From Methanobrevibacter sp. (GTDB lineage: Archaea; Methanobacteriota; Methanobacteria; Methanobacteriales; Methanobacteriaceae): 36,698 nt of DNA. The stretch is taken from NCBI RefSeq assembly GCF_017447225.1, contig NZ_JAFSNZ010000004.1, positions 1 to 36,698 of the forward strand, given 5' to 3'. The notes under the pieces were generated by a model that saw only the letters and a program-made list of their open reading frames with translations, searched no databases and was not told the DNA's origin. Made by a program: the position numbers and the translations under genes. This document shows, piece after piece, positions 3,083 through 23,576 of the stretch; positions within the stretch are counted from its first letter, which is position 1, and each line of letters opens with the position of its first letter.

Positions 3083-4303
3083 CTAAAATTCATTGATTAA
3101 TCTTGACATTAATTTATATCCTTCCTGTTTTTCGATTGAGCCTGTCTTTACACCCTCTTCATCGAATGATGTGCAGTTATCACCATTTTTATCTGATGAA
3201 TAGACCACTAAAGGCACGTCGTCACGTGTGTGTGTTCCGATTGAAATTGGTGTCGGATGGTCCGGCAGGATTGCTGCCTTAAATTCAGTGCCTTCAAGGC
3301 TGTCAATAATCGGTCCGACAATAAACTCGTCAATTCTCTCAATTGCCTTTACCTTTTCGTCTATCAACTGAGCGTGTCCCGCTTCATCAGGCGCTTCGAT
3401 ATGGATAAATAGTACATCATGGGTTTTTAAGGCTTCGATTCCATATTCTCCTTTTGCCTTATAGTCTGTGTCGAAAAATCCTGTAGCTCCAGGCACTTCA
3501 ATGACATCGAGATTGGCGAATATTCCTATTCCCTTAAGCAAGTCGACACCTGTGATTACAGCACCGGTAAGTCCGTAGGTTTCCTTAAAGTCAGGTAATG
3601 CCGGAGTCAGACCCTGTCCCCATAGCCATACCATATTTGCAGGACATTTTCCTTCAGCAATCCTTTTCTGATTGATTTCATGGTCTTTTAGAACATCTTG
3701 AGCTTCATACATGATGTCTCTCATTTTGATAGCCAATTCATCATCCCATGTTGTGTATTCAGTTAGGTTTTCACCTGCAATGTCATGTGGCGGCACCATG
3801 TCGAGATTTGCGAGAAGCTCAGCATCCTCATCATTGTCACATGAGTATACGAATAAATGCCTGTAGCTTATACCAGAATAGAACTTGCCCTTGAAGTTTT
3901 CATATTTTTCATTAAAATAATCATTTAATGCATCCATCAATACGGCAGCCTCTTCGGAGGTGATGTGGTCTGCATTGAAGTTGTGCATCATGTCATCTTT
4001 TTCAGTTATTGTGTTGCATCTGAAAATCACATCGGTAGGTGATGTTTCTATTCCAACACTTCCGGCTTCAAGAGGTCCACGTCCGGTATAGAAATCCGCA
4101 GGATTGTATCCGAAAATGCTCATGTTTGCAACATCAGATCCTGGAGTGTATCCGTCAGGAACATTGTTTGTAAATCCGCCAAATCCGTTTTTGGCTAATT
4201 TATCAATGTTTGGTGTTTTTGCTGCTTGAAGTGGAGTTTTACCATCTAATTCATCTATCGGAAGGTCGCTAGAACCATCAGGAATAAAAATTACATATTT
4301 CAT
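3083..4303 (-). CDS. apgM: 2,3-bisphosphoglycerate-independent phosphoglycerate mutase, archaeal type
   Basis: A 406-residue enzyme interconverting 3- and 2-phosphoglycerate in glycolysis/gluconeogenesis. It belongs to the alkaline-phosphatase superfamily. The start MKYVIFIPDGSSDLPIDELDG carries the first metal-binding Asp and PGSDVANMSIFGYNP holds the serine nucleophile region; near the C-terminus HIEAPDEAGH and LPDHPTPISIGTHT supply metal ligands. I start it at the ATG at 4303; a TTG at 4318 would add five residues but has no ribosome-binding site. It lies 31 bases after the homoserine dehydrogenase gene and is probably in one transcript with it. Confidence 0.93.
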   Translation of the reverse strand: MKYVIFIPDGSSDLPIDELDGKTPLQAAKTPNIDKLAKNGFGGFTNNVPDGYTPGSDVANMSIFGYNPADFYTGRGPLEAGSVGIETSPTDVIFRCNTITEKDDMMHNFNADHITSEEAAVLMDALNDYFNEKYENFKGKFYSGISYRHLFVYSCDNDEDAELLANLDMVPPHDIAGENLTEYTTWDDELAIKMRDIMYEAQDVLKDHEINQKRIAEGKCPANMVWLWGQGLTPALPDFKETYGLTGAVITGVDLLKGIGIFANLDVIEVPGATGFFDTDYKAKGEYGIEALKTHDVLFIHIEAPDEAGHAQLIDEKVKAIERIDEFIVGPIIDSLEGTEFKAAILPDHPTPISIGTHTRDDVPLVVYSSDKNGDNCTSFDEEGVKTGSIEKQEGYKLMSRLINEF

Positions 4304-4334
4304 ATTATCTAAGTCCAAAAAAAGAATAAAAAAA

Positions 4335-5354
4335 TTAGTATTTGGTTTTTAAAATACTAATTACGTCAGTCAACATCGCAGATGCAGTCTCAAGAGAACC
4401 TGCACCAAGTCCCATTACAGTAATGTCTCCAGCCAAGTCTGTCTTGATTGTAGCCATGTTTAAAGTTCCGCTTACATCATAGGAACTTCCTTTTTTAACT
4501 AAACGTGGAGATACCTTTAATGTATCAGGAGTTACTTCAGCTATTAATTTAATTAAATAACCGTCTTTGCGTGCAAGGTCGATTGCTTCTGAAGTGATAT
4601 TGGAAATACCTTCAACAATCACATCATCATAGGTTGCATCGATTCCTAAAAGGGAATTTGCCAAAATTACTGTTTTACATGCAGCATCAATACCTTCAAC
4701 ATCCTGGGTCGGGTCTGTTTCGGCGATTCCGAGCTCCTGGGATTCCTTCAATGTAATGTCATAAGGGGAACCTTCAGAGGTCATTCTTGATAAGATATAA
4801 TTTGTAGTACCGTTCAATATTCCGACAATTGATTTGATTCCGCAGGATGCGAGTGTTTCACGTGTGAAATTGATAATTGGCATTGCTCCGCCGACACTTG
4901 CCTCATATTTAAATTCAACACCTTTGTCTTTAGCTGTTTCAGTTACTTCCTTGAATTTAAGTGCCAAATGTCCCTTATTGGAGGTTACAACATCTTTTCC
5001 CTGATCGAATGCTTTTAATGTCAATGACAATGCAGGTTCAGCAGTTGAAATATTGGTAGGAGTTGCTTCCATTAACAGGTCATATTCAACAGCATCCAAT
5101 ACATCAAGACCTGATACGTCAGTACCATCGTTCGGATAAGTGGTTAGGTTACCTTCACTGTTTTTACTGTGAATAAGCAACATTTCATCCAAACCGTCCT
5201 GATTGATAGCAGAAGAAGATGAATCAGCGGCGGCTACAACTTTCAATTGCACGCCATATTTGTCTTTTATCATAGCTTTCTTTAATGCGATGGATTGGGC
5301 AATTCCCTGACCCACAGATCCGAATCCCATTATAATAATCCTACATTCCTTCAT
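4335..5354 (-). CDS. hom: Homoserine dehydrogenase
   Basis: A 339-residue NAD(P)H-dependent enzyme that reduces aspartate semialdehyde to homoserine, the branch to threonine and methionine. The N-terminal Rossmann motif is [24 protein letters not shown] carries the conserved lysine region, and [10 protein letters not shown] and [16 protein letters not shown] form the catalytic domain. It has no C-terminal ACT domain; an ACT-domain protein is instead encoded separately, eight bases upstream. AGGGAT precedes the ATG. Its product would feed metX and metY, which lie about 20 kb away in this window. Confidence 0.93.
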
Positions 5355-5362
5355 AATAATCC

Positions 5363-5848
5363 CTAAACCTCATTAATCATAAGTAATTCTTTTTCTTCAG
5401 AGATTTTTTCAATCTCATCAAATGCATACTGTTTTTTTCCATAAGCCACTTCAAGGTTAATCAGTGCGGTTGATTTCTTCTCACCGTCAAGCTTGATATC
5501 GAATCCGACCACATAAACGCCGTCCAATGCGTTAATCCTATCGGTAGTGTCTCTTACATCCCTGTCGACGATATGGCCGATTAAAATAGTGCTGACCAAT
5601 TCCTTATTGATGACACCATCCTTTTCAATGATGGAAATGTTCAAATCATCAAATCTTTGAATTACACGGTTAAGACTGTCTTGTTCACCTTCCAAAGTAA
5701 GCTGGACAGGAATTTTACCGTTTTCATTTTTAGCGTCTCTTTTATGGATTACAGTAACCAGATTAGCGCCAAGACCACTGATCGGTTCCAGTACGGAAAC
5801 TAGCTGACCCGGAACATCCAAAAGTTCAAGAACCAAATTCATTCTCAT
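5363..5848 (-). CDS. ACT domain-containing protein, likely regulator of homoserine dehydrogenase
   Basis: A 161-residue protein opening with a typical ACT fold ([31 protein letters not shown], about residues 3-75), a small-molecule binding module usually specific for amino acids. The second half ([23 protein letters not shown]...) looks like a second ligand-binding or dimer domain. Its position directly before hom suggests that it senses threonine, methionine or another end product and controls that enzyme in trans; this is inference from context. The start at 5848 is favoured because AGGTGA sits five bases upstream; an in-frame GTG at 5857 lies inside that site. Confidence 0.8.
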
Positions 5849-5869
5849 ATTACTCACCTTTAATCATAT

Positions 5870-6082
5870 CTAAATCCAATCAGCCTTTTTAACCTTAAGA
5901 TTGCCGTCTTTGTCAATATGTGCATTTCTTAAGATTTTTTCAGGGTTTTTCTCATGAGGCACGTCTTCACGAGTTAAGTTTAAGTTATCAGTAATATACC
6001 AGGTTTCTTCTGAATCCGGAATATTTTCCAAAGTCTTTGAAAATTCTTCTATAATCTTTTCTGCATCTTTTTCAATTGACAT
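5870..6082 (-). CDS. gatC: GatC-like protein (Asp/Glu-tRNA amidotransferase subunit C)
   Basis: A 70-residue acidic protein. The C-terminal half LTREDVPHEKNPEKILRNAH followed by DKDGNLKVKKADWI follows the GatC pattern LRED...NAP...G.F.VP, but it is shorter than bacterial GatC (about 95 residues) and has His-Ile where Ala-Pro is usual. GatC stabilises the GatAB amidotransferase that converts Asp-tRNA(Asn) or Glu-tRNA(Gln). No gatA or gatB lies in the window. It precedes the ACT gene by about 20 bases and probably begins the gatC-ACT-hom-apgM transcript. The assignment rests on a short motif. Confidence 0.65.
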   Translation of the reverse strand: MSIEKDAEKIIEEFSKTLENIPDSEETWYITDNLNLTREDVPHEKNPEKILRNAHIDKDGNLKVKKADWI

Positions 6083-12687: not shown

Positions 12688-13248
12688 TCATTTTTCTATA
12701 ATTTCAACATTTTCCAAAGATTTGATTTTATCAATTCTCTTGTTTAAAAGCAGCAATATTATCTTTAATGCTTTTGTGATTCCATTTTGCGATCTTTTAA
12801 ATAATGCTTCACTATTGTTTTCAGATAAATCTGCATAAACATCAGTGACTGTAAGAATTTCATAGCTGTCTGTTATAACGGATATTGCTCCACGGCCAAC
12901 TCCTGCAGTAGTTCCGATAGCCATATCACAATCGCTTAAATTCTTTACTGCTTGTGCCATGATTTTGCTTACTTTTTTATCTCCGGCTTCATCATAAACT
13001 TTAATTCCTTTAATCAGTTTATCCGGTTTTGGAGGATTTTCAACATTCAATATCTTTACAACAGCTTCTATTGTGGGGATAAATAAACTGCATGTTACGC
13101 TAAGTTCATTATAATCAAAATCCCCATAATCCTGAAGGTTTTCCACATATTCACATCCGAAGTTACCTTCATAATTCTGGGCTATTGCATGAAGTTCCCT
13201 TCCGATTTTTCCATGTGTGAAGCATTCAGCGGTTGCTATTTTTATCAT
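12688..13248 (-). CDS. hcgF: [Fe]-hydrogenase cofactor biosynthesis protein HcgF (UPF0254)
   Basis: A 186-residue protein of the UPF0254 family. The N-terminus MIKIATAECFTHGKIGRELH has Cys at position 9, the residue that in characterised HcgF forms a thioester with the guanylylpyridinol carboxylate on the way to the acyl-iron ligand of the Hmd cofactor. The glycine-rich DMAIGTTAGVGRGAI segment is also typical. It is the last gene of the leftward hmd-hcgA-F run and overlaps the 3' end of hcgE by 23 bases, implying coupled translation. Confidence 0.9.
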   Translation of the reverse strand: MIKIATAECFTHGKIGRELHAIAQNYEGNFGCEYVENLQDYGDFDYNELSVTCSLFIPTIEAVVKILNVENPPKPDKLIKGIKVYDEAGDKKVSKIMAQAVKNLSDCDMAIGTTAGVGRGAISVITDSYEILTVTDVYADLSENNSEALFKRSQNGITKALKIILLLLNKRIDKIKSLENVEIIEK

Positions 13249-13891
13249 TTTGATCTACCAGTAATTTTAAAGCATTCATTGTGATGATTTTTGCAACTTC
13301 ATCTAATGTATATGGAGTTACAGGTTCATTGTCCCTGATTAATTTGTTTGTTGTTAAAACCAAATGATTTTCAGTTATTCCTTCTTTTCTTAACTCTTCA
13401 ACAGCAGGATTTGAATCATCATATTCAGAGATATCCTTGATTTCTATATTCTCATCACCGAAACCGAATATTCCTGCAGTTCCTATTGTTTTTGCTCCTC
13501 TTTCATGGGCATGTTTTATTATCTTTGAAGCGACAGGTATTGTATTTCCTCCGGCAATAACTATAATCACCACGTCACCTTCAATCAAATCGATATTTTC
13601 ATCATCAATGTATTCCGGATAGCTTATGATATTTCTGAATTCTTCTTTGTGAGTGCATAGCTGTTTTATAAAATCAGGTTTGTATTGGCCTATTTCAGCT
13701 CCGTGAAGCGTGAATATCACATCGCCACCATCTATTTTTTGACCGTCAAATGCACCTATTATTTTAGGTCCTCCTCTGTGAACCTGCATCAGGTTTATTG
13801 CTATTCTTAAACCTAATCTTCCGCATCCTACCAAATCAATTCTTCCTTTAGGAACCTGCATATCTTCCATTTTTTGAATTTCATCCGTCAT
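13226..13891 (-). CDS. hcgE: [Fe]-hydrogenase cofactor biosynthesis protein HcgE (ThiF/E1-like)
   Basis: A 221-residue Rossmann protein related to ThiF and ubiquitin-activating E1 enzymes, with the nucleotide loop RIDLVGCGRLGLRIA at about residues 18-31 and a later VIIVIAGGNTIPVASK segment. In characterised HcgE the carboxylate of guanylylpyridinol is adenylylated, activating it for transfer to HcgF. The gene sits between hcgD (four-base gap) and hcgF (overlap), the usual order. The ATG at 13891 is preceded by AAGTGATA. Confidence 0.88.
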   Translation of the reverse strand: MTDEIQKMEDMQVPKGRIDLVGCGRLGLRIAINLMQVHRGGPKIIGAFDGQKIDGGDVIFTLHGAEIGQYKPDFIKQLCTHKEEFRNIISYPEYIDDENIDLIEGDVVIIVIAGGNTIPVASKIIKHAHERGAKTIGTAGIFGFGDENIEIKDISEYDDSNPAVEELRKEGITENHLVLTTNKLIRDNEPVTPYTLDEVAKIITMNALKLLVDQNDKNSNR

Positions 13892-13895
13892 ATTA

Positions 13896-14594
13896 TCACT
13901 TCAGTTCTTCTATCGGTTTTTTATCAATTACTTCTATGTCAATGTAAAGTTCATCCAGTATATCTCCAAGAGCATAGAGGCCGGGAACTTCGCTTTCATG
14001 ATGGTTCAAATCAATTAAGGTCACATTTACATTTTTGGCAAGGATTGCGCATTCCTGAGTCAAATCACCGGAAATCAGAATATTTAAATTCTTGTCCTTG
14101 GCCAATTCAATATAGTATGGATTTTTAAGGCCGAAACCTGAAATTATTCCAATATTTTCTACGAACTCATCATCACTCAAGTTATTCACAATTCGGACAT
14201 TGCTGAATTTATCAAGAATTGTCTTTTTCAATTCAGCAAATGTTTGATCTGCTTTGCACACCCGTCCTATTTTTGTTGAATCATCAAAATAACTTATAAC
14301 TTCAAGATTGAGAGTTTCTGCAAGGGCATCATTAGCTCCTCCATCAATGATATCCCAGTTTGAATGAATTACATATGTTGGTGTTTTCGGGACAAATAAC
14401 GGGGAGTGATGAGTTATTATCAGAGTATCATCACAGTCAGCATCGTCCTGAGGGAATAAGTCCATGTAAATTTTAATGGATTTGATATCCTGATTTAAGT
14501 CATACTCACCTTTAAATCCGATTTTATCATAGCTTAAAGCTAAAGATTGTGGTATTTTTTCATTTATAAATTCAATTATTTTTTTAAGTTTCAT
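13896..14594 (-). CDS. hcgD: [Fe]-hydrogenase cofactor biosynthesis protein HcgD (Nif3-like)
   Basis: A 232-residue member of the NIF3/DUF34 family. Metal-binding landmarks are visible: LIITHHSPLFVP near residue 70 and LIDLNHHESE near 200, giving the His/Glu set of a dinuclear metal site. HcgD has been proposed to traffic iron during assembly of the iron-guanylylpyridinol cofactor. Its ATG overlaps the stop codon of hcgC in an ATGA arrangement, so the two are translationally coupled. Confidence 0.88.
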   Translation of the reverse strand: MKLKKIIEFINEKIPQSLALSYDKIGFKGEYDLNQDIKSIKIYMDLFPQDDADCDDTLIITHHSPLFVPKTPTYVIHSNWDIIDGGANDALAETLNLEVISYFDDSTKIGRVCKADQTFAELKKTILDKFSNVRIVNNLSDDEFVENIGIISGFGLKNPYYIELAKDKNLNILISGDLTQECAILAKNVNVTLIDLNHHESEVPGLYALGDILDELYIDIEVIDKKPIEELK

Positions 14595-15379
14595 AAAATC
14601 ATTTCTGAGGTTATTTTGTTAATTTCTTCTCTAATCAGTTCATCCAAATCAAATGGGCTGATTGTTGATACCTTGAATGCATTTACATCAGTCAGTTCAA
14701 TGAACTTTTCGATATCTTTCTGTTTGAAGATGACTTCTTCTAAAAATCCCATTTCACAGGCACAGTAAAGCACACCTTCCCTTTCAAGAAATTTATTCAA
14801 CAGGTTCGTTAATATGCCTATCGTTAATGTCATTGTTCCGGATGTTTTGGTGTTGATTCCTTTAGTTTTTAAAATAGCTTTATTTTGTGAATTAACAGCA
14901 TTTAATCTTTCGTGAATGTTGTTTTTATCTTTTAGAAGTTTGTCATTGTCTTCAGCCACAGGATCTTCTATTATAAATGATTTAACATTTATTTCTGATG
15001 ACTGTTCAACAGAGATTCCTCCAAAGCCTGTCGTATCAATGACAACTTCTCCGGAATATATCAAATCAATGTCTGATGAAAATTCAATTTCATTTTTGAG
15101 ATTCCCTCCCAAATCAGTATGCAATAACTCTTCAAGATGAGGATAAATGTCAATTAATAGAATATTTTCATATTTTTCACTTAATCTTTTGACAATCCCC
15201 ACACCGGTGAAATAAGTTCCGATAACAACTATTTTGGTATTAACGTCAATGTTGAGGCTTTCAATATAATTAAAAACAGCTTCTGATTTTTTAGAAATGA
15301 TTTCATTGAAAATGTCAATTAGTTTTATTTCGGATTTTATTGTGAACACTTCAGAGGTTATTCCAGTATCAATATTCAT
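14591..15379 (-). CDS. hcgC: [Fe]-hydrogenase cofactor biosynthesis protein HcgC (SAM-dependent methyltransferase)
   Basis: A 262-residue protein with a Rossmann-like core: KIVVIGTYFTGVGIVKRLSE followed by ENILLIDIYPHLEELLH. Characterised HcgC is a SAM-dependent methyltransferase with a dehydrogenase-like fold that methylates C3 of the pyridinol precursor. The identification rests on this motif set and on the position between hcgB and hcgD. AAGG lies about eight bases before the ATG. It is separated from hcgB by four bases and overlaps hcgD. Confidence 0.87.
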   Translation of the reverse strand: MNIDTGITSEVFTIKSEIKLIDIFNEIISKKSEAVFNYIESLNIDVNTKIVVIGTYFTGVGIVKRLSEKYENILLIDIYPHLEELLHTDLGGNLKNEIEFSSDIDLIYSGEVVIDTTGFGGISVEQSSEINVKSFIIEDPVAEDNDKLLKDKNNIHERLNAVNSQNKAILKTKGINTKTSGTMTLTIGILTNLLNKFLEREGVLYCACEMGFLEEVIFKQKDIEKFIELTDVNAFKVSTISPFDLDELIREEINKITSEMIL

Positions 15380-15383
15380 AATT

Positions 15384-15866
15384 TTAACCTTCTATTTTTT
15401 TAAAGCCGATTTTTTCAAGAGCTTCACATGCCTCTTTATAAACTGCCTCTTCGATTGTCTTTTTATGAATCAGATGTGAAGGTGACATTCCCGCAGTCAG
15501 TATCCTTCCCTTATTGTCAATGAAAATCAGTAAAGATCCGGAACCCGGAATTCCAAGGCGTCCTCTAGCTATTATCAAATCAGCATCACTTTGGTCCAGC
15601 GCAATATAAGCTTTTGCAAGAGCAGGTATTCTGCTGGTATCTGCAGTATTGGTGTTAATCTGAAGTATTTTTGCTTCAGGCAATCCGTATTCTGTTAAGA
15701 CTTCGTTTAAAACTTCAACTTTAATTCCATTCTTATTTGGAATACATATTTTTTCAGCATTTATTATATAATCCTGAATTTCAGCAATTTCTTCAGGAGT
15801 GTCTCCGAATCTGGTGTTGTTTTCAGATTGCTCAAATGCATTTCTTATCATCTTTTCAAATGCCAT
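15384..15866 (-). CDS. hcgB: [Fe]-hydrogenase cofactor biosynthesis guanylyltransferase HcgB
   Basis: A 160-residue DUF3236-type protein. HcgB couples GMP from GTP to the hydroxypyridine to give guanylylpyridinol. Family landmarks are NTNTADTSRIPALAKAYIAL, DADLIIARGRLGIPGSGSLL and GMSPSHLIHK. The length matches the family. It lies about 25 bases after hcgA and four bases before hcgC in the leftward operon. The ribosome-binding site upstream of the ATG is weak. Confidence 0.9.
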   Translation of the reverse strand: MAFEKMIRNAFEQSENNTRFGDTPEEIAEIQDYIINAEKICIPNKNGIKVEVLNEVLTEYGLPEAKILQINTNTADTSRIPALAKAYIALDQSDADLIIARGRLGIPGSGSLLIFIDNKGRILTAGMSPSHLIHKKTIEEAVYKEACEALEKIGFKKIEG

Positions 15867-15890
15867 ATTATCATATCTTAAAAAAAGAGA

Positions 15891-16889
15891 TTAAATAGTT
15901 TGAGGTATCAAATCCAATTTTTCGATGACATTGACAACCTCATTATAGTTTCCGTATTCCGGAGATCCGACTCCTTTTACTTCATGAGGATAATTGTCGG
16001 CTATTACTGTTGCAAGATTGTTTGCACCTGCCTTAAGTGAGAATTCCACATTTTCCGGTCCGACTGTTGGAGTTGGCATTGTAATTGTAATTTCCGGATA
16101 CATTATTCTTGTAACGGCAACAATTTTCAGCTGTTCTTTCAGCGGGAACGGAGGGTGATTTTCCATCGGTGTGCCTTCATACGGATTAAAACCCATTATT
16201 GGAATTTCATTTAATGTCTTGAAATTGGATAAGTATCTTAAGTGTTTTATTCTATCCTCTTTGCTTTCGCCGAGGCCTAAAAGCAACCCTGAAGACAGTG
16301 CAATGCCCGCATCGCTTACTCTTTTACATGTAAGTATTCTTTGATCCAATGAATCACCGGGTTTTCTTTGATAAAATATCTCCTCTTTTATTGTCTCCAG
16401 ATTGCAGCAGATGGTATCGGCACCGAGTTCAGCCAATTCACGAACTGACTTTTCTGTCAGGTCTCCTCCAACATTCACAAGGATTTCCAAGTCAGATTGT
16501 CCTTTGACGATTCTGCAGGCATTTACTGCCTGTTTTCCTTTGTATCCATATCCTCCGGAACAGCTTACGCGTGGTATATGGGCTTCCTCGATGGATTTTA
16601 CAGCAGCCAATATTTCCTCATCAGATTTGTAGAATGCATTATAGTATCCTTTTTCTGAAGTTTCTTCTGCAAATCCACAATATTCACATCTAGGTTGAAT
16701 CTGGCATTTGTTTGTAAGGTGAACAGTTGAAGTTAACTTAATTACTTTTGATTGATTATCTCTTATCTCACAAGCTGTCTTGAACAATTTTTCCAAATCT
16801 TCATCATTTTCAATGTTTAACAATTCTAAAAATTCATCATCACTTAATTCTTGTCCTTGTTTTGCTTTATCTAAAATATTATCAATCAA
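15891..16889 (-). CDS. hcgA: Radical SAM protein HcgA (HmdB)
   Basis: A 332-residue radical SAM enzyme with the unusual cluster motif C62-X5-C68-X2-C71 (NKCQIQPRCEYCGFAEE), which is diagnostic for HmdB/HcgA in place of the common CX3CX2C. SCSGGYGYKG and GLLLGLGESKEDR are further radical-SAM blocks related to biotin synthase, ThiH and HydG. It is thought to act in forming the pyridinol ring. The start is a TTG at 16889 supported by AGGTG five bases upstream, and no in-frame ATG follows before conserved sequence. It is separated from hmd by 120 bases containing a hairpin. Confidence 0.93.
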   Translation of the reverse strand: MIDNILDKAKQGQELSDDEFLELLNIENDEDLEKLFKTACEIRDNQSKVIKLTSTVHLTNKCQIQPRCEYCGFAEETSEKGYYNAFYKSDEEILAAVKSIEEAHIPRVSCSGGYGYKGKQAVNACRIVKGQSDLEILVNVGGDLTEKSVRELAELGADTICCNLETIKEEIFYQRKPGDSLDQRILTCKRVSDAGIALSSGLLLGLGESKEDRIKHLRYLSNFKTLNEIPIMGFNPYEGTPMENHPPFPLKEQLKIVAVTRIMYPEITITMPTPTVGPENVEFSLKAGANNLATVIADNYPHEVKGVGSPEYGNYNEVVNVIEKLDLIPQTI

Positions 16890-16918
16890 TTTAACACCTT
16901 ACTCCAATTTATTAATGA

Positions 16919-16969
16919 TTAACTTATTTTTTAATGGTTATTTTGAGTAACAATTAAAAAATAAGTTAA
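16919..16969. repeat. Long perfect inverted repeat between hmd and hcgA
   Basis: The 17-base arm at 16919-16935 is exactly repeated in inverted orientation at 16953-16969 with a 17-base spacer. It lies between the hmd terminator-like hairpin and the hcgA ribosome-binding site. On the leftward transcript it would fold into a long A/U stem just before hcgA. It may act in attenuation, mRNA processing or as a regulator site; the structure is seen, the role is inferred. Confidence 0.5.
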
Positions 16970-16995
16970 AAAATTGTTGATAAAAATCAACAATT
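16966..16995 (-). terminator. Terminator-like hairpin after hmd
   Basis: Immediately after the hmd stop, AATTGTTGAT (16972-16981) pairs with ATCAACAATT (16986-16995) around a four-base loop; on the leftward transcript the stem is followed by a U-run (plus-strand A-run at 16968-16973). This has the form of an intrinsic terminator and would let hmd mRNA end separately from the hcg genes, with partial read-through. Confidence 0.55.
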
Positions 16996-17009
16996 ATAAC
17001 TTATTGTGT

Positions 17010-18023
17010 TTATTCATCTTTTCCTAAGTAATCTAATACAGTAGGTACAATTTCTGCTAAGGAACCAAAGTTCATGGAATCAGCAGTACCTAATAATGCA
17101 GCTGGGTTTAAAGCATCGTCCATTTTGTCGATACCTTCATTTTGCATTAATGCAGTTACTTGGGTTAAAGCTTCGTTAGCCATCATTTGTGCAAATCCAG
17201 CAGGTGCACCTAATATTTGGGTAACAGTGTCTCTGTAAGCTAAAATACCTGCATAGGTAATAGCAGTTACTGCGGAACACATGTCACATACAGGACCAAC
17301 CATGTTTGCAGGCAATGTGAATGCAGATCCTCTTGCTTTTTGACCTAAGTCCATTAAAGTGTCGATGGAAGCTTGGTCTGCGAAACCTTCAGCGATGTAA
17401 ACTTGTCCTTTCATTTCAGGTACTGCACCTGGGTGGTAGGAAGCTACATTGACATCAGTTCCTAAGTCTTCGAAGATTTTGTTTAATCCTGTGGTAGGAA
17501 TGGTACATGCGTGAGTTACGATTGCACCAGGTTTAATAGCATCAGCGAATTTTTCGATGATAGCAGGTTGCATACCTCCTTCAGGTAACCAGGTCATAAC
17601 CCAGTCAGCGTCAGCTACAGCTTCACGGTCATCGTTGATACATTTCATGCCTAAGTCTTCAGGGTGAGTAAAGTGAATTGCACCTTTTTCTGGTTTTGGT
17701 ACAGTTTCAGCTAATTCTGCAACTTTTTCTCTGATTGCAGGCATTACTTCTTCAGGATTTCCTGCTTTGTGAGCTGCAATTACTTCTGCATAATCGAAAT
17801 CATCTACAACAGTGAAGTCTCCGTCAAATACTGGGTCAGATACAACAACTTCATCTACACCAGCTAATTCTAATAATTCTGCACCCATTTCAATAGTTGA
17901 GTGAGTCATAGAAATGTTTTCTTTTCCGGTTGCTTCTGCAACTTCTACAGCTCTTGAGAAGTTGGTAATTCCACTTGCAGCGTGTGTTCTGTAACATCCT
18001 GCACCTAAAATTGCTACTTTCAT
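17010..18023 (-). CDS. hmd: H2-forming methylenetetrahydromethanopterin dehydrogenase ([Fe]-hydrogenase)
   Basis: The enzyme uses H2 to reduce methenyl-H4MPT to methylene-H4MPT in CO2-reducing methanogenesis and carries the iron-guanylylpyridinol cofactor. From the canonical start MKVAILGAGCYRTHAASGIT it is 337 residues. His-14 is present, and Cys-173 in THACTIPTTG corresponds to the iron ligand Cys-176, so this is catalytic Hmd and not an HmdII paralog. YHPGAVPEMKGQVYIAEG and GPVCDMCSAVTAITYAG are signature blocks. AGGAGA precedes ATG 18023. The frame extends upstream to a second ATG at 18083 with an almost identical ribosome-binding site, which would add 20 residues. The codons look highly optimised for expression. 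Confidence 0.96.
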   Translation of the reverse strand: MKVAILGAGCYRTHAASGITNFSRAVEVAEATGKENISMTHSTIEMGAELLELAGVDEVVVSDPVFDGDFTVVDDFDYAEVIAAHKAGNPEEVMPAIREKVAELAETVPKPEKGAIHFTHPEDLGMKCINDDREAVADADWVMTWLPEGGMQPAIIEKFADAIKPGAIVTHACTIPTTGLNKIFEDLGTDVNVASYHPGAVPEMKGQVYIAEGFADQASIDTLMDLGQKARGSAFTLPANMVGPVCDMCSAVTAITYAGILAYRDTVTQILGAPAGFAQMMANEALTQVTALMQNEGIDKMDDALNPAALLGTADSMNFGSLAEIVPTVLDYLGKDE

Positions 18024-18138
18024 TTTTTTGTCTCCTTTACCATCATCTTTTGAAAATCTTTCTTTTAATTTAGAAAGAACCATCTTTTTGTCTCCATAAT
18101 TGGATAACTTTTTTTAAATAAATTTATTTAAAAAAGTT

Positions 18139-18204
18139 TTACTACATGGTAAAAATATTATAATTGCTTTTTAATTAATTATGGTAGTTCATACCATGTA
18201 GTAA
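18139..18204. promoter_or_regulatory. 13-base inverted repeat upstream of hmd
   Basis: TTACTACATGGTA (18139-18151) is matched exactly by TACCATGTAGTAA (18192-18204), spaced 40 bases. The proximal arm abuts the hmd core promoter. A nested ATGGTA/TACCAT pair (18181-18197) shares the distal arm. Likely paired operator half-sites for a regulator of hmd; the protein is unknown. Confidence 0.5.
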
Positions 18205-18289
18205 TATTTATAATTTAAAAAGTGATACTATTTAAACCTTTACATTATGCTTAATTTAGTATTATTTTTAATATTACATTTCCTTTTTT

Positions 18290-18307
18290 AGTAATACTAG
18301 TATTACT
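18290..18307. promoter_or_regulatory. Perfect palindrome built from AGTAATACT
   Basis: AGTAATACT is directly followed by its reverse complement AGTATTACT, giving an 18-base perfect palindrome. The same nonamer recurs at 18331-18339 and 20297-20305, and its complement at 20014-20022, so copies flank hcgG on both sides. A regulator-binding site is the simplest reading. Confidence 0.5.
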
Positions 18308-18372
18308 TTTTATTTATTATTGAACAATAAAGTAATACTTTTTATTTTTAATAAAACAATCTAACAATTTAA

Positions 18373-18388
18373 TTTAGGTATACCTAAA
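18373..18388. promoter_or_regulatory. DtxR-like metal-regulator box upstream of hcgG
   Basis: TTTAGGTATACCTAAA is a perfect 16-base palindrome with the TTAGG...CCTAA core known from binding sites of DtxR/MntR-type iron or manganese regulators. It lies about 67 bases before the hcgG start, next to the probable BRE/TATA region. Iron control would make sense for a gene that builds an iron cofactor, but this is inference. Confidence 0.5.
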
Positions 18389-18454
18389 ACGAAAGATATT
18401 TATTAAAGATTTCACTGAAAAATATATAGTTAATTAATTTTTGGAGAACTTTTC

Positions 18455-19951
18455 ATGTATGATTTAATAAAGGATGCAGTTCATGACGATGATGCTGCAA
18501 TTGAAATATCAAAAATGGATAAAGACGTGACATCTGTTGTTGATGCAATTTCCGAGCTCTCGCTAGAAGAGACTATGAAATTGGGAATGCAGTTTAAAAG
18601 ATTCCCCTTAGGATGTGATTTGACTGAAGTGGTTGCAGGAACATGCGCCTCCGATTTGGAACTTATGGATCTTTTAGGAAACTGCAGACTGGCAGATACA
18701 ATAGGAGCTCCGATTCACATCTGCGCATATGCCTTTTCAGACATTGCAGAGAAATTTGGAATGAGAGGAGTTGAAGTAATGAAAAAGGTACATGAAATCG
18801 TTGACGTGCCTTTAGATTTGGATCACTTCGGTGAAAACGGTGCAATGAGACTTCCGAAAAACATCAGCGGATGTGGTGGAGAATGCTATAACAAAGGTCC
18901 TGCATTTACAGAATGCCCTCGGGGAAGAATTCATGAAAGACTTATAGATAAGGAGCTTTCAGAAAAGGACGATAAAGAGGAATGGATCAAGTTATCTTCT
19001 TCCGTTGCAGTCAATGTCACATCAGAACAGACTGGAGACGGCCATGCAGCACCTTTAAGAGAAGCCGAAGATATTGCAAATTTAGCCAAAAAATATGGTA
19101 GAGGTCTGGAATCAATAATGTTTGTTGGTGACGGATATGATGAAGTAATCACCGGTTTTGAAAAATCCATTGAAATTGGAGCTGATGTTATTGTAGTTGA
19201 AGGAGGTCCATTCAACAGATGTGAAAATACCACAGAATCTTTCGCAAAAACAATAGCTGCCGCAAGAATATTGTCACCAGGAAAAGTTGTCGCAACAAAC
19301 GGAGCATATGAACACGAAGTGAGGGCTGGTTTAAGGTCAGGACTGAATATGGTAATCACAGGTTTTCCGAAAAATCACCACGGATACATGTGCGGATATG
19401 AGCCTGGAACCGCAAGAAGAGGTAAATTTGGCCTTCCAAGAATTATGCAAATCATAAATGAAGAATTCCCAAACCGTGGACTTCCAGCGCAAAAACACGA
19501 TTTATTGGCAATAGCAACAGCAGTTAAGATTGCTGGACCTGAATACATCTATCCCGGAAAAATCGGTGCCTACCACATAGGAGATGCACACTGGGCAACC
19601 CTTGTTCATTCAAGAATGTATCAAAACATTGAACTGAAACATACATTAAATGAAATTGTCTCTCTTGCAGAGGGAAGCACAATATCATTGCATGGGGGAC
19701 GATTTATCTCATGGGTAATAGCTAATGAACTGGACAAATATGTTGACGAGATTATCATTTCAGATGTCGATGAATGGGTGTTGAAAAACAGTGTTGACAA
19801 TTTGCAAAATGTATTGAATTCAACAATTATCGCTGAAAAAGATGATAAAGCTGCAGCAGATAATGCAGACTTCTCAATAGCTTCATCAACCATGATTCCG
19901 ATAAAAGAAAACATTCTGAAAAAAGTTCCGAATGCTTTGACAATAGTTTAG
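18455..19951 (+). CDS. hcgG: [Fe]-hydrogenase cofactor biosynthesis protein HcgG (HmdC)
   Basis: A 498-residue protein of the HmdC/HcgG family, found only alongside Hmd and needed for cofactor formation by an undefined step. Features include a cysteine set SGCGGECYNKGPAFTECPRG near residues 137-156, a glycine-rich stretch VATNGAYEHEVRAGLRSGLN, the block KNHHGYMCGYEPGTARRGKF, and a C-terminal region (about 390-498) with fibrillarin/methyltransferase-like spacing (EGSTISLHGGRF...DEIIISDVDEW). GGAGAA lies eight bases before the ATG. It is divergent from hmd, separated by a region rich in palindromes. It completes the hcgA-G set. Confidence 0.9.
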   Translation: MYDLIKDAVHDDDAAIEISKMDKDVTSVVDAISELSLEETMKLGMQFKRFPLGCDLTEVVAGTCASDLELMDLLGNCRLADTIGAPIHICAYAFSDIAEKFGMRGVEVMKKVHEIVDVPLDLDHFGENGAMRLPKNISGCGGECYNKGPAFTECPRGRIHERLIDKELSEKDDKEEWIKLSSSVAVNVTSEQTGDGHAAPLREAEDIANLAKKYGRGLESIMFVGDGYDEVITGFEKSIEIGADVIVVEGGPFNRCENTTESFAKTIAAARILSPGKVVATNGAYEHEVRAGLRSGLNMVITGFPKNHHGYMCGYEPGTARRGKFGLPRIMQIINEEFPNRGLPAQKHDLLAIATAVKIAGPEYIYPGKIGAYHIGDAHWATLVHSRMYQNIELKHTLNEIVSLAEGSTISLHGGRFISWVIANELDKYVDEIIISDVDEWVLKNSVDNLQNVLNSTIIAEKDDKAAADNADFSIASSTMIPIKENILKKVPNALTIV

Positions 19952-20344
19952 ATTAGTTATAGTAATATTTTTTTAGAAAAAAGTAATCTTTTAATAGTAT
20001 TATTTTTAAAAAAAGTATTACTAATAATTTTTTATTTTTCCAAAGATTATATACAAAAAATTAATTAAAACAAATATTTTTAAGAATAACTTACCCATCA
20101 TCCATATTTATAAATTTTAATAGAAATTATTTCTTATTTTTACATTTTAACAATTTTATCCATTATGACTAATTAATACTAGACCATAAAAAATGACTAT
20201 AACAACATATTATCTAAAATTAATACATTATAATTATTCATTATTTATTATAAGAATTTTAATATAATTATATAATAAATAAAGCCAAAAACATCGAGTA
20301 ATACTTTAATAACATTTATATGGTTATTACTACTTAGTACTTTA

Positions 20345-20455
20345 TAGATTATCATAATTTATGATAATTCATAATATGTCAGGCTCAATTATCAAAATTA
20401 GCCGCCTCGTAAATAGCTACCGGACATAGCTATTTACTACTCTATCTTCTTATAT
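20345..20455 (+). ncRNA. Candidate structured RNA, unassigned
   Basis: Three consecutive stems can form: ATTATCATAA/TTATGATAAT (20348-20368), GGCT/AGCC (20382-20403) and GTAAATAGCTA/TAGCTATTTAC with a seven-base loop CCGGACA (20409-20437). A T-rich stretch follows and a TATA-like TTTATATGG lies about 25-30 bases upstream. The GCCGCC patch stands out against the A+T-rich surroundings. It matches no RNA family I recognise; orientation is a guess, and the stems could instead be operators or a terminator. Confidence 0.3.
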
Positions 20456-20505
20456 TTTTATATTCATAGTAAGTTTTAATCAAAACAATTTGTATAGGTG
20501 GTTTG

Positions 20506-20539
20506 AAATAACTACTATTTGATTTTTTAGTAGTTATTT
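20506..20539. terminator. Hairpin after the asparagine-synthetase-like gene
   Basis: AAATAACTACTA (20506-20517) pairs perfectly with TAGTAGTTATTT (20528-20539) around a ten-base loop, starting 27 bases beyond the stop codon of the leftward gene. It probably ends or protects that transcript. The TAGTAGTTA sequence also resembles the other AGTAATA-type repeats nearby. Confidence 0.4.
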
Positions 20540-20565
20540 AATCCTCCTCAAGGATTATGCAGAAT

Positions 20566-22011
20566 CTATAAAAATTCCTTCAAATCAATCTCAGGAATAA
20601 TCTTTTTTCTTAAAATCTTGTCGATTCCCGTGCCGTACTGGGCTGCCTTTTTAGGCCTGTAGGCGATTTCCTTGTCCAGCCCCTCATTGAATGCGAATTT
20701 TCTTAATATGTTTTTTCTTAAAACATCACCGGAACCTGAAATCTTGTTTTTGACGGGAAGATTTATTGCATATTCAACTAAGCTTTTATCCAGAAAAGGT
20801 AGCCTTATTTCAACTGAATTGAGCATTGTGCATGCATCGTCACGTTCAAGGTTTACATGATACATGTTGGAGATGTCCTGGCGGATTTCGAATTCAAGAT
20901 CACCTTCTTCATAGCTTTTCAGGTATCTGTTGTATCCGCCGAAAAGCTCATCAGCACCCTGTCCGGAAATTGCCACGTTCAACTTGTCCTCATGAATCAT
21001 TCTTGATGCGAAGTATGCCGTTAAGCCGACACCAATCTTCATCAGGTTATCGTCACCTATCGCATGGACGACTTCACCCAGATGTTTTCTTATAAGTTCT
21101 GGAGTTATGATTTGTGTCTTTAATGGAAGGTCAAGGTATTCGGCGGCGTATCTTGCGGCCTCAAGGTCCTTTGAGTTTTCACTGCCCACTGCATATAATG
21201 TTATGTCAAGCCTTTTGTTGCATGATATCTCCTCAAGAAGCATTGCCAAAATCGAACTGTCAACACCCCCTGAAAATATTACACCGAGCTTGTCTAATCC
21301 TTCAACTCTTTTGGAAACACTTAACTTTAATAGCTTGTCCAGCTTAGATGCATCGACTTCCATGATTTTTTCATAAATGTATTGTGTCGGAGCTACATCA
21401 TCCCAGTTAAAAAGAATATTTTCGGGCAATAATGTCTGAATCTCATCAAAGCCAAGCTCATTAAGACTGTCACGGGAAGATGCAAATGCGCACAAATCAT
21501 CGCCAACAGCATAAAACAGGGGTTTGACGCCCAACGGGTCACGTGCAATAGCCAAATTCTCACCGTCCCATACTGAAAATGCATAGTCTCCGTCAATGAG
21601 ATGAACGGCAGACTGGACGGCCTTAAGAAGATCACCATTATTGTAAAAGTCAATCAGATTAATTAATGCCTCAGCGTCTGATGTGATTTCACCTTCAACG
21701 CCAACCTTATTTAAAAAATTTCTGATAGTGCCGAAATTATATAAAGCCCCATCAAAAGTCAGAACAAGATTATCCTTAGATATCGGCTGGGGTGAAGATT
21801 TTCTGTCATGAATGTCATAAACACAAAGCAGATTATGGCCAAAAGCAATATCATATTCTTTTTCATCGTCAAAGCTATCCAAATCGATGCCATGGACAAT
21901 TTCATCCAAATATATGCCGGATGAATCAGGCCCGCGCATTTTTGATGCTTTTAACATTTTAATCAAATCATTTCCACTGAACTTTCCCTGAAGACCAACT
22001 ATTGAACTCAT
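20566..22011 (-). CDS. Asparagine synthetase-like protein with degenerate glutaminase domain
   Basis: A 481-residue AsnB-type protein. The C-terminal synthetase domain is intact: PP-loop FSGGVDSS (247-253), AISGQGADELFGGYNRY and the MLNSVEIRLPFLD block. The N-terminal Ntn-glutaminase domain is altered: it begins Met-Ser-Ser-Ile where AsnB has Met-Cys-Gly-Ile, so the catalytic Cys is Ser; LGHxRL has become FGHNLL, losing the glutamine-binding Arg; and the NGE motif is DGA. Asp-112 (SDAEAL) remains. It probably adenylates a carboxylate and uses free ammonia or another amine rather than glutamine. No ribosome-binding site precedes the ATG, so the mRNA may be leaderless. Confidence 0.85.
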   Translation of the reverse strand: MSSIVGLQGKFSGNDLIKMLKASKMRGPDSSGIYLDEIVHGIDLDSFDDEKEYDIAFGHNLLCVYDIHDRKSSPQPISKDNLVLTFDGALYNFGTIRNFLNKVGVEGEITSDAEALINLIDFYNNGDLLKAVQSAVHLIDGDYAFSVWDGENLAIARDPLGVKPLFYAVGDDLCAFASSRDSLNELGFDEIQTLLPENILFNWDDVAPTQYIYEKIMEVDASKLDKLLKLSVSKRVEGLDKLGVIFSGGVDSSILAMLLEEISCNKRLDITLYAVGSENSKDLEAARYAAEYLDLPLKTQIITPELIRKHLGEVVHAIGDDNLMKIGVGLTAYFASRMIHEDKLNVAISGQGADELFGGYNRYLKSYEEGDLEFEIRQDISNMYHVNLERDDACTMLNSVEIRLPFLDKSLVEYAINLPVKNKISGSGDVLRKNILRKFAFNEGLDKEIAYRPKKAAQYGTGIDKILRKKIIPEIDLKEFL

Positions 22012-22154
22012 AGTAATAACTATTGAAAGTGATATGATAAAAAAATTGCCACAGTAATTACAAGTCGGGACAATATTACCTCATCAAAAAATATAACTCC
22101 TTCATTGTTTTATTGATTTAAGGAAGTAAAATTGTTTAGAATGAAAACAAAGAA

Positions 22155-22162
22155 TTTATATA
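22155..22162 (+). promoter_or_regulatory. TATA box of the Rpn-like gene
   Basis: TTTATATA lies about 68 bases upstream of the ATG at 22223 in otherwise non-TATA sequence; transcription would start near 22187 and include the AAGGTGA ribosome-binding site at about 22210. Confidence 0.45.
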
Positions 22163-22222
22163 TCATTAAATACAATATTATACTGTTTAAATTATTTAAA
22201 TAAAAATTAAGGTGAAATAAAT

Positions 22223-23149
22223 ATGAATAGAAATGACGAAATTGAGGAAATGGTTGAATCCATGATGCGTGAGACAACACACAATCCCCGTGATTACTGT
22301 TTCAACTACATTGTCAGCAGATATCCAAAAGCGGCTCATGAATCATTTGGATTTCCAGGAAAATTCATCAAATCACTCGACAGAACCGTCTATAAAGAGG
22401 ACGGTTCAAAATTAGAGTTAGATATAGCTGAATTGGTTGGAAAAGACGGATTCATAACACAAAAATCAACAATCAATGTGGAACACCAGACTACTCCAAT
22501 AGAATATGGAAAGATAGACCCGATATACGACTACAAAATACATTTGATTCACCAAAACAATCTGCCATCGATTTCCTTTGTCATGACATCCATAGAACAT
22601 GAACAGGAAATGAAATGCTATACCTCACAGAACAATGTATTCAATGTATACCCTATTGTAGTGAAAGAAAAAGACATCTACGAAAAATTAAATATATTGA
22701 GAAACATAGATAATACTATCGAAATATCACAAAGAAAAGCAATGTACTTCCCATATATTGCAGTATTTGTCAAATATAATATAGACAAAAAGATACTTGA
22801 AGAATTATGCCATATATTCACACAAGTGAAAATGGACACATACCTCCGATTAGACATACACCATATTCTCAAAATAATGATTAAGGAGATTTTTAAAGGC
22901 AATAAACAAAAAACCAAGGAGTTGTTAACCATGATAACCAGAAAATTAACCGAAAAAGAATTTTGCGAATTAACACGAGAAGAACAATTCAAAGCAGACA
23001 TCGCACGAAAAAACGAAATAATAGAAAATAGAGATTATATGATGGCTAAAAAAGATAAAATGCTATATGAAAAAGAAAAAATGCTAGATGAGAAAGATGA
23101 AGAAATAAAAAAATTACAACAACAAATAATACTACAAAATTCAAAATAG
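22223..23149 (+). CDS. Rpn-like PD-(D/E)XK nuclease family protein with coiled-coil tail
   Basis: A 308-residue protein I do not recognise with certainty. LELDIAELVGKDG followed by STINVEHQTTPIEYGK and DPIYDYKIHLIHQ resembles the D...ExQ core of the Rpn/transposase-like PD-(D/E)XK nucleases (LxDxx...xEHQS), here at residues about 73-110. A middle region (150-240) follows. The end (about 242-308) is highly charged and heptad-like, with AKKDKMLYEKEKMLDEKDEE, probably a coiled coil. AAGGTGA precedes the ATG. The last third is repeated 340 bases downstream. It may be a recombination-linked protein of mobile origin; the catalytic residues need a profile search. Confidence 0.55.
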   Translation: MNRNDEIEEMVESMMRETTHNPRDYCFNYIVSRYPKAAHESFGFPGKFIKSLDRTVYKEDGSKLELDIAELVGKDGFITQKSTINVEHQTTPIEYGKIDPIYDYKIHLIHQNNLPSISFVMTSIEHEQEMKCYTSQNNVFNVYPIVVKEKDIYEKLNILRNIDNTIEISQRKAMYFPYIAVFVKYNIDKKILEELCHIFTQVKMDTYLRLDIHHILKIMIKEIFKGNKQKTKELLTMITRKLTEKEFCELTREEQFKADIARKNEIIENRDYMMAKKDKMLYEKEKMLDEKDEEIKKLQQQIILQNSK

Positions 23150-23399
23150 GATAACATATAATTATCCTAATTCTTTATTTTAAAAAAACGCCACAAAACT
23201 AATAAATTACAAACATCACGATTAAACATCACCCCCCACAACTAAAAAAAATAATAAAAGGTTGTTAACCATGCCACGAGAAAAATTTAAACAAAAACAA
23301 TTTTGCGAATTAACACGAGAAGAACAATTCAAAGCAGACATCGCACGAAAAAACGAAATAATAGAAAATAGAGATTATATGCTAGCTAAAAAAGATAAA
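22921..23399 (+). repeat. Direct repeat pair, 139-base unit at exact 340-base offset
   Basis: Bases 22921-23059 correspond to 23261-23399 with no net insertion or deletion. Both copies begin GTTGTTAACCATG; bases 22959-23041 are identical to 23299-23381 (83 bases), and only a 25-base stretch near the start and a few bases near the end differ. The repeat covers the charged tail of the Rpn-like gene. Confidence 0.85.
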
Positions 23400-23576
23400 G
23401 AACTAAATAAATTAGAAGTAGAATTAAATATGATAATCGCAATAAAAACTGCTACAATAATACTGCAATCTATCCAGATTGTAAATTTAAAAAAAATGAT
23501 TGAACTAAATGGAGAGATAAAAAGAATAGACGTATTATTAAAATTTCAACGTAATCTTATTAAACGATTCAAATAA
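23271..23576 (+). CDS. Duplicated coiled-coil tail of the Rpn-like protein (fragment or small gene)
   Basis: A 101-residue ORF whose first 43 residues nearly copy the upstream protein's tail: both share FCELTREEQFKADIARKNEI and the following ENRDYM(M/L)AKKDK. The nuclease-like part is absent. The remainder (NKLEVELNMIIAIKTATIIL and beyond) is new, partly hydrophobic and partly basic. There is only a weak AAAGG upstream. It is either the leftover end of a second, deleted copy or a small protein able to interact with the same partners as the full-length protein. Expression is unproven. Confidence 0.5.
   Translation: MPREKFKQKQFCELTREEQFKADIARKNEIIENRDYMLAKKDKELNKLEVELNMIIAIKTATIILQSIQIVNLKKMIELNGEIKRIDVLLKFQRNLIKRFK

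Follow-up and report, generated by a model that had tools for sequence, protein, structure and literature searches.

The AsnB-type gene of a Methanobrevibacter sp. was found to carry a glutaminase half stripped of its catalytic Cys and N-G-E motif and a synthetase half under purifying selection, and this loss of the glutaminase is real, recurrent and biochemically readable. The gene lies in the window, by which we mean the whole stretch of 36,698 nucleotides analysed (contig NZ_JAFSNZ010000004.1, positions 1 to 36,698). We favour, at a rough probability of 0.68, an ammonia-dependent asparagine synthetase, the single AsnB-type enzyme of its lineage, whose pseudo-glutaminase domain folds yet is catalytically dead, with both the product and the nitrogen donor inferred.

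Glutaminase and synthetase sites of the window protein

The 481-aa open frame falls exactly at 20566-22011 on the minus strand, and its AsnB-type product matched TIGR01536 (asparagine synthase) with 290.1 bits against the curated cut-off of 267.1, together with the Pfam families Asn_synthase, GATase_7 and GATase_6. Residues were numbered by aligning the window protein with E. coli AsnB from NC_000913.3, which gave the following features.

20566..22011, minus strand: asnB with pseudo-glutaminase domain, 481 aa (TIGR01536, Pfam, AlphaFold2, fold match)
22006..22008, minus strand: Ser2 codon AGT replacing the nucleophilic Cys (E. coli AsnB alignment; also in the sister MAGs, L152 and L153)
21829..21831, minus strand: Leu61 in place of E. 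coli R49, a change seen across the lineage (110 of 131 rows have Leu)
21745..21753, minus strand: D87-G88-A89 replacing N-G-E of the oxyanion hole and glutamine network (E. coli AsnB alignment)
21253..21273, minus strand: PP-loop SGGVDSS of the synthetase domain (motif Asp in 131 of 131 rows)
20947..20967, minus strand: SGQGADE, where Gln351 takes the place of the E348 carboxylate of E. coli AsnB (130 of 131 rows have Gln)
20632..20658, minus strand: RPKKAAQYG, containing the catalytic Lys that corresponds to E. coli K449 (130 of 131 rows have Lys and 1 has X)

The frame opens with ATG-AGT, which places Ser at residue 2, the position of Cys1 in E. coli AsnB, and N74-G75-E76 of the E. coli enzyme are replaced by D87-G88-A89; the first-pass annotation had claimed both substitutions, and the alignment bore them out. 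Roles of the N-G-E residues in the oxyanion hole and glutamine network are described in a paper on human ASNS (PMC6748925). Among the features of a glutamine-hydrolysing AsnB, the window protein thus lacks the N-terminal nucleophilic Cys, N-G-E and R49, the Arg that holds the carboxylate of glutamine and that here aligns with Leu61, and retains both R30 and D98. The change from Arg to Leu, which had been counted as a further mark of a dead site, is present but was ruled out as such a mark, since it is lineage-wide and includes Cys-bearing relatives: of the 131 aligned family rows, 110 have Leu here, as do 59 of the 62 that belong to the genus, and the majority of rows with Leu bear Cys. Among the A2 rows, Arg was found in Methanococcales, Thermococcus and Nitrososphaera, and Leu in most Methanobacteriales and in Methanoperedens.

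Ser2 is shared by two sister MAGs, G103 (L152, 94% identical) and G009 (L153, M. millerae SIG13, 83% identical), which carry DGA or DGV in place of N-G-E, whereas the relatives G014 and G096 (81% identical to the window) retain Cys. The annotation had regarded close homologs with Cys as grounds for suspecting a sequencing error, and such homologs exist at 81%, but the closer relatives share Ser, which makes Ser2 a real lineage change and rules out the error. A misplaced start was likewise ruled out, as none of the in-frame starts upstream has Cys as its next residue.

In the synthetase half, the PP-loop SGGVDSS (pattern SGGxDS), D351, R387 and the catalytic K449 of E. coli AsnB are all kept, so that the earlier description of perfect synthetase motifs holds for these residues and fails, family-wide, for E348 and K376. 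K376 corresponds to Asp379 in the window (Asp in 131 of 131 rows), and E348 to Gln351, which lacks the carboxylate; Gln was found in 130 of 131 rows. A separate set of genome contigs had been collected with a pattern that includes SGQGADEL, which biases the Gln conservation within that set, and it was left out of the evidence. E348 mutants of E. coli AsnB reportedly fail to form beta-aspartyl-AMP, the carboxylate at this position being needed in the E. coli enzyme. In human ASNS, contacts of Asp-367 and Glu-364 to the aspartyl group are described (PMC6748925); in the window family the Asp is conserved and the Glu replaced. Gln351 is the weak point of the reading as an ammonia-dependent asparagine synthetase.

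AlphaFold2 modelled both domains with pLDDT 95.2 and pTM 0.92, and the model has the two-domain AsnB fold; a folded glutaminase half is to be expected of AlphaFold2, because most alignment rows bear Cys. The best fold match was E. coli AsnB (1ct9; VIA Z 42.6, rmsd 2.1, 434 aligned), followed at lower Z by human ASNS (38.1), TsnB9 (37.8), beta-lactam synthetase (34.9) and carbapenam synthetase (29.7).

A second, normal AsnB, for which the first-pass annotation had suggested a search, was not found in the host genome (96.65% complete), where the other matches were PurF and a GltB-like glutaminase, and the window gene is the sole AsnB-type copy. Both of these proteins keep their Cys, so the glutaminase loss is gene-specific. 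Poisoning of the Cys by formaldehyde or methylene-H4MPT was set aside on the same ground.

Recurrence of the loss and selection on the gene

A search of 150 genomes gave a match in 133 of the order, of which 127 were used with one row per genome; fragments (G005, G071) and partial genes (G012, G044, G075, G152) were left out. Together with 4 rows from outside the order they form the 131-row alignment. Cys2 was absent in 26 of the 127 rows of the order, and Cys was present in 105 of the 131 aligned rows; within the genus, position 2 held Cys in 52 rows and Ser in 10. All 26 Cys-less rows had also lost N74 or E76, against 4 of the 105 Cys rows (L005 and L024 without E76, L041 and L044 without both N74 and E76), indicating that the changes go together and that intermediates exist.

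The tree was built only from columns of the synthetase domain, which hold none of the traits; the parsimony minimum on it was 10 changes for Cys2, 9 for N74 and 11 for E76, and the Cys-less rows formed 11 maximal clades, some of them on weak branches. The multi-row clades comprise the window with G009 and G103, L015 with L018, L134 with L135, and 12 rows in the genera g19, g21, g22, g24 and g27; L028, L030, L063, L065, L080, L111 and L039 (family f3) stand singly. Over 8 supported independent pairs, N74 changed in the same direction as Cys2 in 4.9 on average and in the opposite direction in 0 (median p 0.06, not significant), and E76 changed in the same direction in 6.0 of 8 on average (p 0.03).

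The stretch holding Cys2, R26 and Leu61 is largely gone in 8 rows (L113, L114, L120, L125, L130, L133, L136 and L137), which have a short leader before an NGE-like motif and keep the synthetase. In a model of the Methanobrevibacter cuticularis protein (L189, overall pLDDT 81.9), the residual N-terminal part, from about residue 14, is less certain. AsnB-type relatives from Bathyarchaea (L209, L226, L229) are also without Cys2, possibly a further independent loss. Adaptation to gut ammonium would be an attractive explanation for the loss of the glutaminase; many Cys-bearing rows also come from rumen or gut MAGs. The literature searched, which covered few of the subscription papers, contained no account of archaeal AsnB losing its glutaminase recurrently.

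Compared with its 94% sister, the window gene showed a dN/dS of 0.10 for the glutaminase part (0.048/0.486) and of 0.05 for the synthetase part (0.020/0.391); compared with G009, the two values were 0.14 and 0.06. Across pairs, which are non-independent and in many cases saturated in dS, the medians were 0.204 (glutaminase) and 0.093 (synthetase) for dead copies (n = 32), and 0.112 and 0.059 for Cys pairs (n = 795). These figures indicate that the synthetase is constrained and that the dead half is relaxed yet not free. With the defect recurring in independent lineages and the synthetase under purifying selection, the original picture of a dead glutaminase and a living synthetase, and not of a random pseudogene, is supported. 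The gene is nevertheless dispensable, as asnB had no match in 4 of the order's 90 good genomes. The asnB of the 94% sister (L055/L152 in G103, a roe deer MAG) is interrupted by one in-frame TGA close to the 3' end and codes for 461 aa in place of 481; this is either early decay or a sequence error, and on its account the window subclade may be losing asnB.

Gene context and the asparagine economy

After 30 of 129 loci had been set aside for short flanks, gatC lay within 3 kb downstream of asnB on the same strand in 83 of the 99 loci of the order that were kept, with a median gap of 185 bases. The conserved string in relatives runs asnB, gatC, an ACT-like protein, homoserine dehydrogenase and iPGM/proposed homoserine kinase. 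In the window, the string from gatC onwards is found at 3083-6082 on the minus strand, in the same strand and order as in relatives and 14.5 kb from asnB.

5870..6082, minus strand: gatC, the downstream partner of asnB in most relatives (NF000681 90.4 bits, cut-off 64)
5363..5857, minus strand: ACT-like domain protein in conserved position (weak ACT match, E 0.008)
4335..5354, minus strand: homoserine dehydrogenase (NF004912 457.8 bits, cut-off 373)
3083..4318, minus strand: iPGM / proposed homoserine kinase (NF003242 547.2 bits and TIGR02535 503.6 bits, both over cut-off)

The ACT-like protein is conserved order-wide between gatC and homoserine dehydrogenase and is possibly a regulator of this aspartate-family string. 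In the L234 stretch (G096), none of the searched genes was found within 20 kb. At L192:5971-7547, from an archaeon outside the well-sampled groups, gatC directly abuts asnB, and the pairing may be older than the order.

The window also holds a complete-looking FeGP cofactor/Hmd block at 12688-19951 (hcgF, E, D, C, B, A, hmd, hmdC). Its position between asnB and gatC was seen only in the window, although hmdC adjoins asnB in the 94% sister as well; in G014 and G009 the gap from asnB to gatC is about 8.5 kb and is without the block. Matches to hmd or hmdC lay near asnB in 3 of 228 loci, many of them short-flanked, and all three were copies of one sister contig. In G014, asnB stands at 982 kb and hmd at 518 and 1258 kb; within the genus, 47 of 67 genomes have an hmd match. 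The Hmd/FeGP genes beside the window asnB are a recent local arrangement, and the linked role that had been proposed for them was rejected. The shared repeats adduced for the same link were not convincing either, as 19900-22300 held only short AT-rich two-copy families. At 22223-23576, two adjoining ORFs (308 and 104 aa) have a common sequence stretch; the 308-aa ORF had no Pfam or NCBIfam match, and a relative (cluster c31) adjoins asnB in a few members of the genus.

AsnRS was over cut-off in 0 of 49 searched genomes of the order and in 4 of 61 overall, all more distant, and AsnA (TIGR00669) matched in 0 of 61. The host genome has GatB over cut-off, a second match of GatB/GatE type, and GatC, and the result for its lineage agrees with listed archaea that are without AsnRS (PMC9499178). 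With no AsnRS or AsnA match in the order and GatB and GatC in the genome, the product is probably free asparagine outside translation: Asn-tRNA would be made by GatCAB, leaving a non-translational role for free asparagine. In Methanothermobacter marburgensis, asparagine excretion was highest under ammonium excess and CO2 limitation, in a report whose available text leaves the gene behind it unnamed (PMC12881071); Cys is kept in all 8 f2 rows, which we take to be Methanothermobacter.

Nitrogen donor, alternatives and known systems

Our reading of the enzyme, which extends to its activity, ammonia donor, aspartate acceptor and physiological role, is an inferred one. The synthetase half would bind ATP and aspartate and form beta-aspartyl-AMP, which free ammonia would attack to give asparagine, AMP and PPi, and glutamine would supply no ammonia; free asparagine would then be a sink or store for nitrogen, or be excreted, and would not go into translation. 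PurF and AsnB can no longer use glutamine once Ser or Ala replaces their Cys (PMC3261824), and when the N-terminal Cys of E. coli AsnB is blocked, glutamine-driven synthesis stops and NH4Cl-driven asparagine formation continues (PMC10866355). These results suggest an ammonia-dependent synthetase, and the several separate losses of the glutaminase among relatives make the window enzyme probably ammonia-run. Asparagine as the product is indicated by the family, the fold, the gene string and the excretion by Methanothermobacter marburgensis.

That the archaeal SGQGADE subfamily is instead a separate amide ligase, which amidates or couples a different carboxylate and whose glutaminase loss is an accompaniment, seems unlikely. 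The family-wide replacement of E348 and K376 fits such a ligase, as does the lack of AsnRS in the order, so that translation needs no free Asn, and AsnB-annotated enzymes do amidate other acids, for example mDAP in Listeria peptidoglycan (PMC8554201). However, the nearest folds are the E. coli and human asparagine synthetases, TIGR01536 is matched over its cut-off, the gene string holds aspartate-family genes and gatC, and a member of the order makes free asparagine (PMC12881071). Furthermore, Gln is family-wide and most members have a full glutaminase, so that Gln does not track glutaminase loss. A role in amidating pseudomurein is disfavoured by the relatives in Thermococcus and Nitrososphaera, which are not known to have pseudomurein.

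It is quite improbable that the gene is on its way out, with selection relaxed once GatCAB made Asn-tRNA and with the glutaminase going before the whole gene. The synthetase half keeps dN/dS of 0.05-0.07 among the window, G103 and G009, the frames are open, and dead copies persist in deep clades such as the 12-row group, although asnB is absent from some near-complete genomes, the 94% sister has its in-frame TGA, in the window clade the N-terminal part has a dN about 2.5-3.2 times as high as the synthetase has, where Cys pairs show a median ratio of 1.95, and asnB was lost in gut-adapted Methanimicrococcus (PMC9723798). We give very little credence to a continued use of glutamine nitrogen supplied in trans by another glutaminase or GatCAB. 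The gatC gene adjoining asnB in 83 of 99 loci would suit this, but the adjacency is usual in Cys-bearing rows too and hence not tied to the loss, and GatC by itself is not known to be a glutaminase; selection on the pseudo-glutaminase domain, as for a docking or channel role, would also suit it, whereas no new glutaminase gene was seen beside the dead copies among neighbours that were clustered and annotated in part.

An ammonia-dependent asparagine synthetase raises the puzzle of why organisms should make free asparagine if they do not load it onto tRNA. A wider proposal is tentative and, on balance, doubtful: that the archaeal SGQGADE AsnB subfamily makes free asparagine or another amide outside translation, and that Methanobacteriales repeatedly and convergently switched from glutamine to ammonia. 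If true, it would provide a natural series of intermediates in the disassembly of an amidotransferase, down to partial deletion of the glutaminase, and organisms lacking AsnRS would have a second asparagine economy, apart from translation. AsnB is treated as a fixed glutaminase-synthetase fusion; in Table 1 of PMC3376133, which counts domain arrangement and not active-site state, asnB is 100% fused to glutaminase in 700 genomes and the 'No Glnse' form is absent. Repeated glutaminase loss with a selected synthetase offers intermediates for asking what the domain does beyond ammonia production. The annotation 'glutamine-hydrolyzing' is wrong for many species among these methanogens, with consequences for the metabolic modelling of rumen methanogens, and since TIGR01536 scores a dead copy over its cut-off, this label should be read with caution.

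Compared with known systems, the window protein is most like E. coli AsnB (1ct9) and human ASNS (6gq3), sharing the two-domain fold over the full length, the PP-loop, D351, R387 and K449. It differs from E. coli AsnB in the replacement of Cys1, N74, E76 and R49, in Gln for E348 and Asp for K376, and in length (481 versus 554 aa). Beta-lactam and carbapenam synthetases have an AsnB-like fold with a non-functional glutaminase-like domain, and a catalytic Tyr at the E348 position, where the window has Gln351. Their folds lie farther away, AsnB and ASNS ranking higher in fold and sequence, and the window gene is a single gene with no antibiotic cluster seen; an identity of the beta-lactam synthetase kind was dropped, as it ranks under AsnB by predicted fold (34.9 versus 42.6), although fold searches of this kind leave room for other families. 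The changed reaction that the first-pass annotation had drawn from these relatives was not upheld, given Gln instead of Tyr, a model nearest AsnB and a gene context of aspartate-family and Asn-tRNA genes, and the change relative to AsnB is more simply one of nitrogen donor than of reaction. AsnA would share the proposed overall reaction but belongs to an unrelated family. PurF' of Crenarchaeota is likewise a class II glutaminase without Cys, with its pathway context kept and ammonia use proposed (PMC3261824); it has a different synthetase domain and a normal PurF alongside, whereas the dead copy in the window is the only AsnB. The NAD synthetase family is similar in being an amidating enzyme with an adenylation step and forms with and without glutaminase, but the ammonia form is proposed to be ancestral there (PMC3376133), and the glutaminase form for the window family.
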